Of a stretch of 64,000 nt of DNA, positions 56,782 to 64,000 are shown piece by piece (the stretch's first letter is position 1; each line of letters opens with the position of its first letter). Location of the stretch: the NCBI RefSeq assembly GCF_001861355.1, contig NZ_MASN01000060.1:310001-374000 (forward strand), written 5' to 3'. Under the pieces are notes generated by a model. That model was not told the origin of the DNA and made no database searches. It saw nothing but the letters and a program-made list of their open reading frames with translations. The translations under genes and the position numbers were made by a program. Source of the DNA: Natrialba sp. SSL1 (lineage in GTDB: Archaea; Halobacteriota; Halobacteria; Halobacteriales; Natrialbaceae).

Positions 56782-57801
56782 TTACTCGAGTTCCCCTTCT
56801 TCCCAACCGGGCGTCTCGGGCGCGCCGTGGTCCTCCTCGACTGTAACTGCGAGATCGGGTGATGACACCGAATCATCATCGTCGCACGCTGCCGTGTCGT
56901 AGCGCTCGTGCCACTCGTCGATTGCGGGACCGACCCAGGACGCACTGTCGGGGGCGCTGTTTCCACTGTCTCCACCGCCTGCTGATGGCATCGCCTCCAT
57001 CGCCTGTGTTTTTCCCGTCTCGTAGTGGTGCTCCGAAATCGCGAGCGTGCCCGGACTCGAGGCGCTCGCGACGGCGATGCACTCGGCGCGATCCTCCGGC
57101 CGAAGGTGACCGGTTTCGAGGCGGTCGACGACGCCGGTGAGGTCGTCCGGCTGTGGATGACAGAAGAGTTTCTCGCCGATAGCCTGTGAGCCGAGCAGCG
57201 GTCCGTCGCCGAGTTCGTCGTCTGAAAGCCGGTCGTCGAGCAGCCGATCGCCTCCGAAGGCCGCCTCGACGCGCTCGCACTCGGTTTCGTGTCCGAGTTC
57301 GAGGTTGTGCGCCGGATAGGCACCGCACTCGGAAGGAAAGTGTTCGTCGCCGTGGATGCGACACTGCAGCGTCGTCGGATCGAGAAAGACACAGGTCGGC
57401 AACCAGTTCGGTTCGGCGCGGCCGAAGGGTGCGACCGGTTTCGGCGGTTTTCGGAGGCCGACGAAGAAGACCGGTCGGTCCGCGATGGCGGCGACCTGTT
57501 GGCCGTCGATTTCGACCGCCTCGTGCTCGTCGCGGGCGCGCCAGAACCGCGGCGTCATGGCAGCAGCCATTCCCCGGTCGAGGAAGGTCCGGACCTCGTC
57601 CCGGGTCAGCGGGACGAAGTTAGCGTCGTCGTCGAACGGTGGGCGGCGCTCGTTTTCGGTGTTGTCGCTAGTGCTGTCGCTATCGCTGTCGCTGGCGTCA
57701 GCGAATCGCCCGCGCTGGCGCGTTCGGTCCGCCTCGTAGTCGTCGAGCAACGCCGTCCAGTCCATACAGCAGCCGGCACAGCCAGCACAGTGCACCTCCA
57801 T
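56782..57801 (-). CDS. YkgJ-family cysteine-cluster protein
   Basis: A 339-aa protein. The N-terminal HCAGCAGCCMDW (Cys5, 8, 11, 12) and the later CVFLD...CRIHGDEHFPSECGAYP form the Cys cluster of the YkgJ/UPF0153 family, thought to bind zinc or an Fe-S cluster. Between them an acidic Asp-Ser repeat (ADASDSDSDSTSDNTENE) is a halophile insertion. The last 100 residues are acidic and unconserved. ATG 57801 directly starts the Cys cluster. Confidence 0.8.
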   Translation of the reverse strand: MEVHCAGCAGCCMDWTALLDDYEADRTRQRGRFADASDSDSDSTSDNTENERRPPFDDDANFVPLTRDEVRTFLDRGMAAAMTPRFWRARDEHEAVEIDGQQVAAIADRPVFFVGLRKPPKPVAPFGRAEPNWLPTCVFLDPTTLQCRIHGDEHFPSECGAYPAHNLELGHETECERVEAAFGGDRLLDDRLSDDELGDGPLLGSQAIGEKLFCHPQPDDLTGVVDRLETGHLRPEDRAECIAVASASSPGTLAISEHHYETGKTQAMEAMPSAGGGDSGNSAPDSASWVGPAIDEWHERYDTAACDDDDSVSSPDLAVTVEEDHGAPETPGWEEGELE

Positions 57802-58186: not shown

Positions 58187-58390
58187 AGCGTCACCGGTAG
58201 CGAGTCACCAGCAGCCAGTCACCTGCAGTACTCGAGTTGGCTACTAGGTTGGGAGAAGACATGAGCCGTGGTCCGCGAACGGTCTGGCCGACGCGGACGG
58301 CGGACCACGGACGCAAGCCACTGTGTTGAACGGGGATGGGGGAGGGGTGGCAATGGCAACGGGAAGGGTCATGGAGACCGATCCCGTAAA

Positions 58391-58486
58391 CGGAAGGGGT
58401 GGGATTTGAACGCCACGAGGCATGTGCTGCCGTCGCGGGCCAGGGTCAGCTGGCACCGCGATGCTCTACCGCTGAGCGACCCTTCC
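58391..58486 (-). tRNA. tRNA-like gene, identity unresolved
   Basis: A 96-nt element on the minus strand with tRNA architecture: acceptor GGAAGGG / CCCTTCC (7 bp, extendable to 8), U8, D arm GCTC-AGCGGTA-GAGC, T loop TTCAAAT, and a GGCA-GCACA-TGCC hairpin where a long variable arm would be. Oddities: the anticodon arm is one extended hairpin (TCGCGG, bulged T, GCCAG, loop CTGACC, CTGGC, CCGCGA), with no standard 7-nt loop, and the T stem pairs fully only if one C is bulged. It may contain an intron, be degenerate, or be a tRNA-derived RNA. An AT-rich ACAAATAC lies about 30 nt upstream. Confidence 0.55.
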
Positions 58487-58694
58487 GCGACTAAAGCCAA
58501 GGTCGGTGTTCGTATTTGTAATCAGTCGGTTACCTGCGGGTAACTGCCACCTACCGGTGCCTATCAGCCGTTTTTGCGCTCCACATCCGCTCCGATTTGC
58601 TGCCAGTTGGTTTCGATTCCGTCCAGTCTCGTTCCCCACAGCCGAACAGTTCAGTGCGAGCAACGCTCCGTAGCCTTTAGGAGTCGGCCGGTCC

Positions 58695-60614
58695 GTGACT
58701 CAGACGGTGAACCCCGAGCGGATCTTCGACGCCTTTCCCGCGCCCAGCTACCGCGGGAACCAGGAGCAGGCCCTCCGCGACATTCGTGACGCCTTCGCGG
58801 CCGGCAACGACGTGGTGCTCGTGCGCGCGCCCACCGGGAGCGGCAAGTCCCTTCTCGCACGATCCGTCGCCGGCTGTGCCCGGACGATCGAGGAGGCAGA
58901 GCCGAGCGAGGCCGCCGGGGCCTACTACACGACCCCGCAGGTCTCACAGCTCGACGACGTCGCCTCGGACGATCTGCTCGCCGATTTGAACGTCATCCGC
59001 GGCAAGTCGAACTACACCTGTATCCTCCCCCAGGAGCGCAATACGCCGGTCAACCAGGCCCCCTGCGTGCGCGAACGGGGGTACGACTGCTCGGTCCAGC
59101 ATCGCTGTCCGTACTTTTCGGACCGCGCAATCGCCTCGAACCGATCGATCGCGGCGATGACGCTCGCGTACTTCATGCAGACCGCGGGTAGCGAGGTCTT
59201 TCGCAAGCGCGACGTCGTCGTCATCGACGAGGCACACGGCCTCGCCGAGTGGGCGGAGATGTACGCGACGATCCAGCTTGGCCCGCGAACCGTCCCGTTC
59301 TGGGACGACCTGCGCGTGCCACAAATCGACAGCATCGAACGGGCCGTCCGCTACGCCGAGAACCTCGAACAGACCTGTACCCGTCGCAAGGACGACCTGC
59401 TCGCACAGGAGACGCTCTCGCCCCGCGAGGTCCGCGAACGCGACCGGCTTCAGGAACTGATCGGCGAACTCGACTGGTTCGTCTCTGACTTTCGTGACCC
59501 GCAGAGTCCGACGACGTGGCTGGTCGACCAGTCCGAGCGGAACGCAGCCAATACGGACGATGAGACCGACGAGGAACTCGGCGGCCCCCTGACCATCAAG
59601 CCGATGAATCCCGAGAAGTACCTCGCCCACACTGTCTGGGACCGAGGCAACAAGTTCGCGCTCCTCTCGGCGACTATTCTCAACAAGGCGGCCTTCTGCC
59701 GACAGGTCGGGCTCAATCCTGACGACGTCGCGCTCGTCGACGTTGGCCACACCTTCCCCGTCGAGAACCGGCCGCTGTACGACGTCACCCAGGGGAAGAT
59801 GACCTACGAACACCGCGACGAGACGACGCCGGACATCGCCCGTACCATCGTCCGGCTCATGCAGCGCCATCCCGACGAAAAGGGGCTGATTCACGCCCAC
59901 TCCTACAACATTCAGGAGCGACTCGCCGACCTCCTGCGCGACTTCGGCGTCGGCGAGAGAATCCGCGTTCACGACCGCGACGGCCGCGACGCCGACTTAG
60001 AGGAGTGGAAAGCCAGCGACGACCCCGACGTGTTCATCTCCGTGAAGATGGAGGAGGCACTCGACCTCAAGGGCGACCTCTGTCGCTGGCAGGTGCTCTG
60101 TAAGGCTCCCTACCTCAACACCGGCGACTCGCGCGTCGCCCACCGACTCGAGGAGGGCCAGTGGGCGTGGTACTACCGGACCGCGCTGCGAACCATTATC
60201 CAGGCCTGCGGCCGCGTCATCCGCGCCCCCGACGACCACGGCGCGACGTATCTCGCCGACTCGAGTCTCCTCGACCTCTTCGAGCGCGCACGGACGGACA
60301 TGCCCGACTGGTTCGCAGCACAGGTCGACCGCATGTCGACGCCCGAGTTGCCGGCGTTCGATCCGCAAGCGGCGTGTGATTCGTCCGGACCGGGTGGCCG
60401 GCGCGGCTCTGGTCGCAGTGGTGGCTCGGGCAGGGACTCGAGTACGAGTGGGTCAAAATCCGAGTCAGCGGGTCAGTCTTCGACGGGGTCGGATTCGGGG
60501 ACTGCGTACACGCGCTCTCGCTCTCGTTCTCGCTCGCGTTCGCGCTCACAGTCGGGGTCGTCGAACGGTTCGTCGTCGAGTCCGCTCGCAGATGTTTGGG
60601 ATACCGACGGCTAA
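58695..60614 (+). CDS. XPD/DinG-like Fe-S DNA helicase
   Basis: A 639-aa SF2 helicase. Walker A APTGSGKS (45-52), DEAH at 178-181, and four cysteines between them (Cys109, 124, 132, 138) that mark the Fe-S domain of XPD/Rad3/DinG helicases. The C-terminal helicase lobe has QACGRVIRAPDDHG. The last about 70 residues are a Ser/Gly tail with an Arg-Ser repeat (TRSRSRSRSRSRSQSG). Likely a 5'-3' helicase in DNA repair or R-loop processing. The start is GTG 58695. Confidence 0.9.
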   Translation: MTQTVNPERIFDAFPAPSYRGNQEQALRDIRDAFAAGNDVVLVRAPTGSGKSLLARSVAGCARTIEEAEPSEAAGAYYTTPQVSQLDDVASDDLLADLNVIRGKSNYTCILPQERNTPVNQAPCVRERGYDCSVQHRCPYFSDRAIASNRSIAAMTLAYFMQTAGSEVFRKRDVVVIDEAHGLAEWAEMYATIQLGPRTVPFWDDLRVPQIDSIERAVRYAENLEQTCTRRKDDLLAQETLSPREVRERDRLQELIGELDWFVSDFRDPQSPTTWLVDQSERNAANTDDETDEELGGPLTIKPMNPEKYLAHTVWDRGNKFALLSATILNKAAFCRQVGLNPDDVALVDVGHTFPVENRPLYDVTQGKMTYEHRDETTPDIARTIVRLMQRHPDEKGLIHAHSYNIQERLADLLRDFGVGERIRVHDRDGRDADLEEWKASDDPDVFISVKMEEALDLKGDLCRWQVLCKAPYLNTGDSRVAHRLEEGQWAWYYRTALRTIIQACGRVIRAPDDHGATYLADSSLLDLFERARTDMPDWFAAQVDRMSTPELPAFDPQAACDSSGPGGRRGSGRSGGSGRDSSTSGSKSESAGQSSTGSDSGTAYTRSRSRSRSRSRSQSGSSNGSSSSPLADVWDTDG

Positions 60615-61698: not shown

Positions 61699-64000
61699 TT
61701 AGCTTGTGAGTTCTTCCAGCATTATCGTGACATCACCAGGTCCAATTTCACCGTTCTGGTTCATGTCAGCGAATTCCTCGTGGAATGTATCGGTCGGTTC
61801 CTCTCCCATGAGGAACTGCTGGGTCAGCGTCACGTCCATGGTGTTGAACTCGCCGTCACCGTTTACGTCGCCAAGCCAACCAGTTTGGATCGTGTCATCA
61901 ATCGGTACGACATCTACTTCGCCGTATTCGTTGTTGAGGAAGGTGTTCTCCTCATCGAATGCCAGTTCACTACCGCTCTGGTCCGCTTCACCGACGATTT
62001 CGAACTCGAATTCGGCGAGTGACGGCGCTTCATCGTCGCTGGCCTGTGCCTGTGCCATTGAAACCGTACCGTTCTCGTTGTCGATGTTTGTCACGGGATC
62101 ATCGAAGTCGACACCCTCGATTCCTTCAACCTGAACGACATCGGGATCGAAGTGAACTTCAGTTTCGTAGCCTGCAACGTCTTCCGTCGTGTTGATCTCG
62201 ATGTCAATCGTCTCTTCGACAATACCGACGTGGTCGCCATCACCGAACGTTAGTTGGTTGTCCGGTAGTTCGTCGACTGTTACCTCGTGAGTGTCGGCGT
62301 CGTCGTCACTCTCGACGGTAACGTTGCCGTCGCCGGCGTCGCTGGATTCGGTTTCCCACGTCAGCGATACGTTCGAACTTTCGCTCTCGCCGAGACCGAC
62401 GTTGGTGCTGTCGACGACGTCGCCGTCGAAGTCAGCGAGCGTGACAGTCTGCGTGTCACCCTCTTCGCCAGCATTGCTCACCATCGCGTCGACAGTCAGC
62501 GTTTCACCTTCGGTTACTGGCTCGTTCGTGTCCGTGATTTCGACCTGGAAGTCGACACCGTCTTCGGCGTCGTCAGACAGGTATTCGACCGAGTTCGCCA
62601 GAATTGTATCGGCGTTCTCGGTGTAGTCGCCGTCAGTGACGAACGTCGAGTAGCCGAGGCTCGATGCGAGGATCGTCGAACTGTCGTCGTCGACGGCGAA
62701 GCCGTCTCCGGCTGGTACGCCGAATGCGACGGTGTCCGCGATCGAATCGAATTCGGTCCCGTCGAACCAGGTATGATCTCCGTAGATGGCGGCGTGAATA
62801 TCGACAATGTCGCCTTCCTCACCGACGCCGTCGAAGACCTCGTGGTCGGCAGTTAGCTCGTATTCGATCGGTGGTGCAACGAGGTCAGCTTCGCCCGTGG
62901 ATTCCGGTTCACCCGTCTCGTCGGAGTGAACTGGGATCGCATTGCTGTCGGAACCCCACTGATCGAGGTAGACAACACCGGTGTCGCCGCCCTCGGTCGC
63001 ATCGATGAAGTCGCCAGCGTTCGCACTGTCGAGGTTCTGCACAACGATTACGTCGTAGTCATCCATCGCGTCTTCAGACGACATCACGACGGGATCGTAC
63101 ATCTCATCGAGCGAGTCCTCGAGTGTGTCAGCGACACTGTCACCGAACCCACCGGCGTCGTCGACGACAGCAACGGGGATGAACTCATCGAAGACGGTCG
63201 TTGGACCGGTGCTTACCGTTTCTTCGTCGCCTACGCCGGCGACGGTGTGCTCGAGTGCGAGTTCGCCTGCGGTGTCTTCAGTCGTTTCGACGGTGACCGT
63301 CACGTCCTCCGAGACTCCACCGTCGACATCGACGGGTTCGCCGAAGGATGCGGCGTCGCCGTTGACGTACAGCGTTGCGTACTCCTCGTCGTAGTCGCTG
63401 ACGAGGTCGACGGTGACCGTGTCGGCGTTCGCGGTCGTGATCGTCGCGTCGACTTCGTCACCGCCTTCGACGCCGTCTGGCTGGTCGGCAGCCAGTTCGA
63501 CGCCGAGTGCGTCAGCCAGTTCGAAGTCCTGTTCCGTGGTTTCTTCTTCTTCAATCGTCACGTCGGTGCTTTCGGCCTCGAAGCCGAACGCATCAGCAGT
63601 GACGGTGTGCTCGCCAGGTGCGGCAAGCGTGCTGTAGTAGCCGTCTGCGTCCGTGTCAGTACTCCCACCGTCTTCGACATCAACGGTTGCGCCGTCGACT
63701 GGCGTCCCGTCCGTGTCCGTTACGGTCCCCTCGATTCCGCTATCGAGTGCGACCATGTCCGTTGCGGCGGCAGCGTCAATGATTCCCATCCCGTAGCGGG
63801 TGTCGTACTCGTTGTCCGGTTCGTCCCAGTCAGATGGCTTCCAGGCGGTCTCCTCCACGGCGTCAGTGAGGAGTTCGCGGTCAGCGTCACCACCGGAAGC
63901 GGAGACCATCAGTGCGAAGGTTCCGGCCTTGTGCGGTGCGGACATCGAGGTTCCGGTGTAGCTGTCGTCGTATTCGCCCTGGTCAACGGGAACAGCGCTC
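61699..64000 (-). CDS. secreted subtilisin-like protease with cohesin-like and dockerin-like modules, 5'-truncated
   Basis: The C-terminal about 767 residues of a larger protein; the N-terminus, signal and Asp/His catalytic residues lie beyond the window. The subtilase Ser motif GTSMSAPHKAG sits at the start; the catalytic Ser codon is 63946-63948. Residues below are numbered from the Met at 63945. Order: protease tail; carboxypeptidase-regulatory-like repeat (GIEGTVTDTDGTPVDGATV, about 70-140); ThuA/GATase-like region (about 255-470); CARDB-like domain (about 475-560); cohesin-like domain (563-691); dockerin-like module (692-748) with Ca2+ loops DVNGDGEFNTMD and DMNQNGEIGPGD. No membrane anchor at the C-terminus. 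Confidence 0.85.
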   Translation of the reverse strand, partial: SAVPVDQGEYDDSYTGTSMSAPHKAGTFALMVSASGGDADRELLTDAVEETAWKPSDWDEPDNEYDTRYGMGIIDAAAATDMVALDSGIEGTVTDTDGTPVDGATVDVEDGGSTDTDADGYYSTLAAPGEHTVTADAFGFEAESTDVTIEEEETTEQDFELADALGVELAADQPDGVEGGDEVDATITTANADTVTVDLVSDYDEEYATLYVNGDAASFGEPVDVDGGVSEDVTVTVETTEDTAGELALEHTVAGVGDEETVSTGPTTVFDEFIPVAVVDDAGGFGDSVADTLEDSLDEMYDPVVMSSEDAMDDYDVIVVQNLDSANAGDFIDATEGGDTGVVYLDQWGSDSNAIPVHSDETGEPESTGEADLVAPPIEYELTADHEVFDGVGEEGDIVDIHAAIYGDHTWFDGTEFDSIADTVAFGVPAGDGFAVDDDSSTILASSLGYSTFVTDGDYTENADTILANSVEYLSDDAEDGVDFQVEITDTNEPVTEGETLTVDAMVSNAGEEGDTQTVTLADFDGDVVDSTNVGLGESESSNVSLTWETESSDAGDGNVTVESDDDADTHEVTVDELPDNQLTFGDGDHVGIVEETIDIEINTTEDVAGYETEVHFDPDVVQVEGIEGVDFDDPVTNIDNENGTVSMAQAQASDDEAPSLAEFEFEIVGEADQSGSELAFDEENTFLNNEYGEVDVVPIDDTIQTGWLGDVNGDGEFNTMDVTLTQQFLMGEEPTDTFHEEFADMNQNGEIGPGDVTIMLEELTS

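Follow-up and report, generated by a model that had tools for sequence, protein, structure and literature searches.

Transfer RNAs that are used outside translation normally retain the anticodon, as do the non-proteogenic tRNA-Gly species of Staphylococcus aureus, and are not easily distinguished from tRNAs that decode. In the tRNA-like domain of tmRNA, the upper half of a tRNA is retained and the anticodon arm is replaced by other RNA, and the bacterial Y RNA YrlA is a tRNA-like molecule that is bound by Ro60/TROVE proteins. FemAB-type enzymes take amino acids from aminoacyl-tRNA (as stated in parts of PMC4052509 and PMC4810233), and the FemXAB enzymes of S. aureus are thought, according to passages of PMC4052509, to be supplied by tRNA-Gly species whose altered T-stem pairs weaken the binding to EF-Tu.

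The RNA gene described in the current study lies in a window of 64,000 nucleotides from Natrialba sp. SSL1 (the whole stretch of DNA that was analysed). It shares with the S. aureus system the idea of a dedicated tRNA, thought in that system to feed FemAB-type transferases while evading EF-Tu by an altered T stem (so presented in sections of PMC4052509). The S. aureus tRNA-Gly loses the GG at positions 18-19, whereas the present RNA keeps GG, has no anticodon loop and carries a bulge in the T stem, and its donation of an amino acid is only proposed. Like tmRNA, it consists of the upper half of a tRNA with the anticodon arm replaced, but it has neither an mRNA-like domain nor a tag frame, nor the G3-U70 pair for AlaRS, A3-U70 being found in all rows of the order-wide alignment. 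ARAGORN, a program that also detects tmRNA, found none in the window, and all of its calls in 20 related loci were tRNAs. The likeness to YrlA is that of a non-decoding RNA with a tRNA-like fold. With the haloarchaeal tRNA-Ser(UGA), the window RNA has the type II build of the variable arm, G73 and G1-C72 in common; it differs in the missing anticodon arm, another acceptor sequence, a 4-bp D stem and a bulged T stem.

The Rfam tRNA model RF00005 scored the window RNA above gathering (33.6 bits against 29, in a short search of a 501-base stretch; 44.1 bits for the relative L088), although the anticodon loop that defines this family is missing. Rfam 15 reported no family of its own for this RNA in the stretches searched, and no description of it was found among the open-licence papers of PubMed Central by title and start of abstract, which is weak evidence of absence. 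Judged by this literature and Rfam 15, the RNA family is apparently undescribed so far.

Structure of the RNA gene

The initial annotation had claimed a tRNA-like acceptor stem, U8, D arm and T loop, an 11-bp bulged hairpin instead of a normal anticodon loop, an extra hairpin in the variable-arm position and a bulged C in the T stem. Folding of the minus strand (read 58486->58391, RNAfold) bore out all of these. U8 and the tRNA-like arms were present, the long hairpin was formed from 6+5 bp with one bulged U and a tip loop of 6 nt, a 4-bp hairpin occupied the variable-arm position, and the C was bulged from a T stem whose bulge is fixed in nearly the whole family (table 1). The fold had a minimum free energy of -47.3 kcal/mol (z -4.4), and none of 200 shuffled sequences was as stable. 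An anticodon arm of 5 bp closing a 7-nt loop with U33 was absent from the window RNA. By its sequence, the RNA has a plain hairpin where the anticodon loop belongs, and it is thus unable to read codons.

Table 1. Coordinates of the RNA gene, its parts and its neighbours in the window, and of the type C copies
Feature	Position	Strand	Evidence
Anticodon-less tRNA-like RNA gene, whole element	58391..58486	(-)	RF00005 33.6 bits, fold, 33-row alignment, covariation
Discriminator G of the window RNA	58391	(-)	sequence
Acceptor stem, 5' strand GGAAGGG, pairing with 58392-58398 (CCCTTCC)	58480..58486	(-)	invariant in 33/33 rows and in 27/27 rows of the order-wide alignment
D arm GCTC-AGCGGTA-GAGC with GG	58463..58477	(-)	33-row alignment, covariation
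Hairpin in place of the anticodon arm: 6 bp, bulged U, 5 bp, 6-nt loop	58433..58461	(-)	fold; double-sided changes in 5/9 pairs
Variable-arm hairpin GGCA-gcaca-TGCC at the type II (serine-like) position, with the 2-nt linker TC after it	58419..58431	(-)	covariation; comparison with own tRNAs
T arm GTGG[C]G-TTCAAAT-CCCAC, bulged C at 58412	58399..58416	(-)	bulged T stem in 89/91 distinct copies
Promoter-like box GATTACAAATACGAAC, at about -37 to -22 relative to the 5' end of the RNA	58508..58523	(-)	A+T profile of copies
Divergent helicase gene (Helicase_C_2, DEAD_2), conserved neighbour in Natrialbaceae, outside the RNA	58695..60614	(+)	
DUF7531 / CxxCxxCC gene, downstream on the strand of the RNA, conserved neighbour (context)	56782..57801	(-)	
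Type C copies	L170 (G122:C1:3077147-3077231), L172 (G209:C1:1430168-1430255)		

The window RNA was not reported by a whole-window Rfam search at the gathering threshold, nor by ARAGORN on the window, and it was not among the hits of an RF00005 search of its own genome, which returned 47 other tRNAs. A sucA-like match close by (58266-58332) reached 15.5 of 40 bits, far under the cut-off, and was dropped as chance. Further along the window (61699-63945, minus strand), a large secreted-type protein with CarboxypepD_reg, CARDB and Dockerin_1 domains is encoded.

Throughout the family the upper half of the tRNA is almost unchanged in sequence, with a 7-bp acceptor stem, a D arm with GG and the T loop TTCRANT as consensus parts, and the lower half is a hairpin of variable length. 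The replacing hairpin spans from 14 nt (L086) to about 45 nt (some copies of type B, see below) and is reduced in some relatives to 4-5 bp with a 4-nt loop; the whole element measures 78-106 nt. A 5-bp arm with a 7-nt loop and U33 was found in one of 91 distinct copies (L089), as against all 47 tRNAs of the own genome in the same test. In 89 of the 91 copies, the T stem sets six bases against five (GTGGCG/CCCAC in 52, GCGTGG/CCCGC in 35 and GTGTGG/CCCAC in 2). An uninterrupted 5-bp T stem occurred in the remaining two, compared with 44 of the 44 own tRNAs that could be scored (3 of the 47 went unscored). Both are type C, a third anticodon-less kind with a GAAAGGG acceptor, a normal T stem and no 7-nt anticodon loop.

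Upstream of the RNA, the 63 unique copies of the GTGGCG type, the group of the window RNA, carry a box that reads GATTACAAATACGAA or near, with an A+T content of 92-100% at -35 to -33 and at -30 to -28. In the other 37 copies A+T peaks at -30/-29. This A+T-rich box at about -30 we take to be an archaeal TATA box with BRE.

ARAGORN labelled some of the copies L088, L085, L087, L089, L084 and L101 as tRNA-Arg, tRNA-Gly or '???', and such copies may stand in databases as decoding tRNAs.

Conservation and covariation

A DNA search (E<=1e-8) gave a match in 22 of 41 genomes, the own genome counted, and 21 of these were among the 25 genomes of the same family. The exact 24-base 5' part was present in 30 named records (Natrialba, Natrinema, Natronorubrum, Natronococcus, Halobiforma, Halopiger, Natrarchaeobius and others), a count that covers exact matches to this part only. 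With covariance model R1, 82 of 96 genomes of Natrialbaceae had a match of at least 84 bits (counted by hand).

In an alignment of 33 rows, the acceptor, D and T arms and the bulged C were invariant, and 95.1% of cells paired, falling to 40-54% in slid controls. Seven pairs were changed on both sides, compared with a mean of 3.0 in shuffled alignments, and none of 500 shuffles came as high. The inner pairs of the long hairpin covary as a helix among relatives (GCC/GGC with GUC/GAC). The comparison of relatives, which the initial annotation had proposed for the extra stems, showed changes on both sides in 5 of 9 pairs of this hairpin. The order-wide alignment behind model R2 (27 rows, several families) gave a similar picture, with 94.8% of cells paired and 8 doubly changed pairs, and its covariation score was reached by none of 500 shuffles. 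The match is not due to chance, since it recurs in 22 of 41 genomes and its covariation exceeds that of all 500 shuffles.

When model R2 was run over 155 genomes, members of the family scored at least 68 bits and ordinary type II tRNAs at most 60 bits; between or under these bounds were L171 (64.9 bits), a short copy in G086 (57.7) and the type C copy in G122 (60.1). In a search of 147 genomes of the phylum, matches outside Halobacteriales reached 64.9 bits at most. The only one of them inspected (L169) was, by eye, an ordinary tRNA-Ser with a UGA anticodon, and was rejected as a member. By these scores, members of the family were found only in Halobacteriales, at values above those of ordinary tRNAs. 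A copy was also found outside Natrialbaceae on a plasmid of Halorientalis sp. IM1011 (NZ_CP019069.1:58771-58860).

As judged from these comparisons, it is well supported that the RNA family is real, conserved and structured, and the covariation together with the conserved promoter-like box indicate a living gene rather than a remnant.

Type A and type B copies

Two main types could be told apart. When type was assigned by score and length, a type A copy was present in 55 of the 155 genomes, and 26 more had only a type B copy (read by hand). Type A copies are free-standing, and the primary copy of Natrialbaceae lies between the divergent helicase gene and the DUF7531 gene. Type B copies follow sdhA, on its strand, in 23 of 25 loci. 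An amidohydrolase (by eye of the MTA/SAH-deaminase type) was also seen between or beside sdhA and the type B RNA in L107, L108, L110, L106 and L117-L120.

For the discriminator count, type was assigned by presence at sdhA (plus L106 and L117). On this basis, G73 was found in 64 of the 65 distinct sequences binned as type A, and the exception (L171) is an unassigned, B-like copy that fell into this bin since its locus was too short for the sdhA test. The distinct type B sequences had A in 12 and G in 12, and their variable arm is irregular. The variable-arm stem of type A comprised at least 4 bp in 53 of 64 sequences and was shorter in 11; in a set of examples it had 3 bp or more and came with a linker of 2 nt.

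Among the tRNAs of its own genome, tRNA-Ser(UGA) was nearest to the window RNA (72.6, the next scoring 60.4), and the variable arms of the two are alike in construction. This comparison does not establish descent from tRNA-Ser, because for examples from family f17 and of type B other tRNAs scored as high as tRNA-Ser or higher.

FemAB-like genes near type A copies

A neighbour common to all type A copies was not found, and FemAB-like genes (Acetyltransf_6, PF13480) alone recurred across three families. Close to the second copies of genus g6, a FemAB-like gene was located about 0.3-0.4 kb away in 2 of 3 genomes. Within 10 kb of the RNA at these two loci, no neighbour but the FemAB gene (90% identical) was clearly shared; a further, loose cluster did not lie in matching positions. 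In family f7 the distance from type A was 4.4-5.2 kb in 3 of 4 genomes and 57 kb in the fourth (G091), and on the f4 plasmids it was 7.5-8.5 kb in both genomes. A FemAB-like gene lay 2.4-23.5 kb from type A in 23 of 25 f17 genomes, whose shared synteny is a single inherited arrangement and counts once; of the two exceptions, one genome is 62% complete and has no FemAB hit at all, and the other has the RNA at a contig end.

The type A copies of f7, f4 and f17 are situated in or beside gene clusters for surface polysaccharides. These contain glycosyltransferase 2 (Pfam) and, by reading of the translations, an epimerase, a nucleotide-sugar dehydrogenase, GlmS, a flippase and others; a deacetylase was found at 21.4 of 23.1 bits. 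Part of the gene calls of the present study were made with a simple scoring scheme of our own. In g6, f7 and f4, the FemAB-like proteins encoded near type A are homologous (27-37% identity). Those encoded close to the RNA matched TIGR03019 far under its cut-off, and no PDB match by sequence was found for the FemAB-like protein at E<=1. The Pfam family PF13480 also includes enzymes that use acyl-CoA.

No FemAB-like gene was found near the window copy, near any of the 8 primary copies of Natrialbaceae checked, or near the f16 copies, the f5 g97 copies and the second copy of G302.

Across the 155 genomes, FemAB-like genes (E<=1e-10) were present in 55 of 55 with type A, in 18 of 26 with type B only and in 35 of 74 with neither. 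By genus, the figures were 18 of 18 with type A and 20 of 34 without (from a table typed by hand), and in a separate, hand-picked set 14 of 14 and 13 of 22. Fisher's test of the co-occurrence gave 6e-12 by genome and 8e-4 by genus, and the combined proximity, with four null contexts entered at p=1, gave 7e-4; all of these values are post hoc and uncorrected for relatedness. FemAB-like genes were also found in 53 of the 100 genomes without type A, and therefore they do not require the RNA. By location, the link of type A to FemAB-like genes applies to the second copies of g6 and to f7, f4 and f17, and to neither the window copy nor the primary locus of Natrialbaceae; co-occurrence points to such a link too.

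Proposed function and alternative explanations

The window RNA is probably a working, conserved RNA that does something other than codon reading. It would be transcribed from its own promoter and would fold into a tRNA elbow made up of acceptor, D and T arms, as sequence and covariation suggest, and the plain hairpin bars codon reading. The RNA retains the parts that would serve tRNA-processing enzymes, CCA addition and a synthetase indifferent to the anticodon. SerRS is an enzyme that does not need the anticodon, and since both G73 and the variable arm of type II are present, serine is the most likely amino acid with which type A RNAs, the window copy included, would be charged. The SerRS elements G73 and a long variable arm are both present in type A. 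As reported in parts of PMC9976931, the elements of archaeal SerRS also include a weaker G30-C40 pair, and the tRNA-Ser of H. volcanii rejects LeuRS. The weaker pair was not found: the rows of the 33-row alignment have C30-G40 (by eye). One fixed serine identity would misfit type B, because its discriminators are 12 A and 12 G.

The bulged T stem may weaken the binding of elongation factor 1A and thus act as an anti-determinant. The amino acid would then be passed to FemAB-like transferases that modify a surface polysaccharide or protein, and the FemAB partner of the window copy would have to act in trans. We tentatively favour this reading, at somewhat less than even confidence: a non-decoding tRNA that gives an amino acid, probably serine, to surface-modifying FemAB-like transferases. 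A dedicated seryl-tRNA-like donor of this kind fits the anatomy and the context of type A. The membership of the window RNA among the non-proteogenic tRNAs is not established, and its way of working is only proposed. A wider version, which we regard as possible but doubtful, is that the RNAs form an order-wide archaeal family of tRNA genes without anticodon that serve as dedicated aminoacyl carriers (type A seryl and FemAB-like), with the sister type B at the succinate dehydrogenase locus possibly linking respiration to tRNA metabolism.

Three options had been offered in the initial annotation, an intron-containing tRNA, a decayed tRNA and a tRNA-derived regulatory RNA; of these, the last took the right direction in being a tRNA-derived, non-decoding RNA, and the genomic context of the type A relatives points to an amino acid donor rather than a regulatory role. 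That the gene is a decoding tRNA with an unusual intron is highly improbable. By eye, excision of hairpin bases from the window copy could leave a 7-nt loop with U33 (GUGCCAC), but the arm forms a continuous helix that contains a single bulge, and in the folds, read by eye, a bulge-helix-bulge was not seen at the exon-intron borders. The arm shrinks or grows in relatives, in most of which the intron would be too short or absent, and the inner pairs, which hold the would-be anticodon bases, covary as a helix. Copies with a tip loop of 4 or 5 nt refute an intron, and the own genome already has its 47 other tRNA hits. A decayed tRNA was rejected because of the conservation at the same place in Natrialbaceae, the invariant acceptor, D and T arms, the compensatory changes and the promoter-like box. 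The missing anticodon and the plasmid-borne state of some copies would suit a tRNA pseudogene or an integration scar, which is nevertheless scarcely credible given order-wide conservation, the same compensatory changes and the promoter-like box; the covariation refutes it. As to a phage or viral origin, no match was found in phage records or viral contigs (IMG/VR patterns).

Considerably more weight must be given to the possibility, itself a tentative one, that the RNA is never charged and mimics a tRNA in order to regulate or to sequester. With its invariant upper half it would bind proteins that handle tRNA, such as RNase P, tRNase Z, modification enzymes, EF1A or one of the synthetases, and the hairpin would be a free extension. 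The upper half is far more conserved than the remainder, and a lower half that ranges from 14 nt to about 45 nt would agree with such an extension. The mixed A/G discriminators of type B speak in the same direction, as does its place behind sdhA, which suggests a link to metabolism over surface chemistry. A mere mimic, however, would have no use for the G73 and the serine-like variable arm that type A retains, and type A is repeatedly placed beside FemAB-like genes. The discriminator of type B, which is mixed, and its location at sdhA do not point to a single role, and when all copies are considered together, an uncharged mimic or regulator has nearly the same likelihood as the amino acid donor. 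By analogy with tRNA punctuation, the tRNA-like fold could also mark the 3' end of the sdh transcript for cutting by RNase P or tRNase Z. This would account for the position of type B on the same strand just behind sdhA at most type B loci, but it is improbable, as type A is free-standing and divergent from the helicase gene in Natrialbaceae, and both groups have the A+T-rich box at about -30, as would be expected for a separate promoter.

If the amino acid donor reading is true, the family would offer a clear example from nature of a tRNA that is released from the genetic code and keeps the parts touched by synthetases and transferases, and a first lead to a tRNA-dependent modification of archaeal surface polymers. 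It would also account for puzzling assignments of haloarchaeal tRNAs as 'Arg', 'Gly' or undetermined.

Other unusual tRNA genes of the genome

A Ro60/Y RNA system was considered for the family and rejected: TROVE genes were found in 5 of 41 genomes and the RNA in 22 of the same 41, and the two did not track each other. On another contig of the own genome, outside the window (C56:544-4912; L152, L155), five odd extra tRNA genes (Pro, Ser, Glu, Met and Glu by ARAGORN) were observed just before a TROVE (Ro60-like) gene. Two adjoining, divergent and unusual tRNA genes, Gln-TTG and Asp-GTC, were also found on a 6.4-kb contig of this genome (C59:5662-5813; L164).
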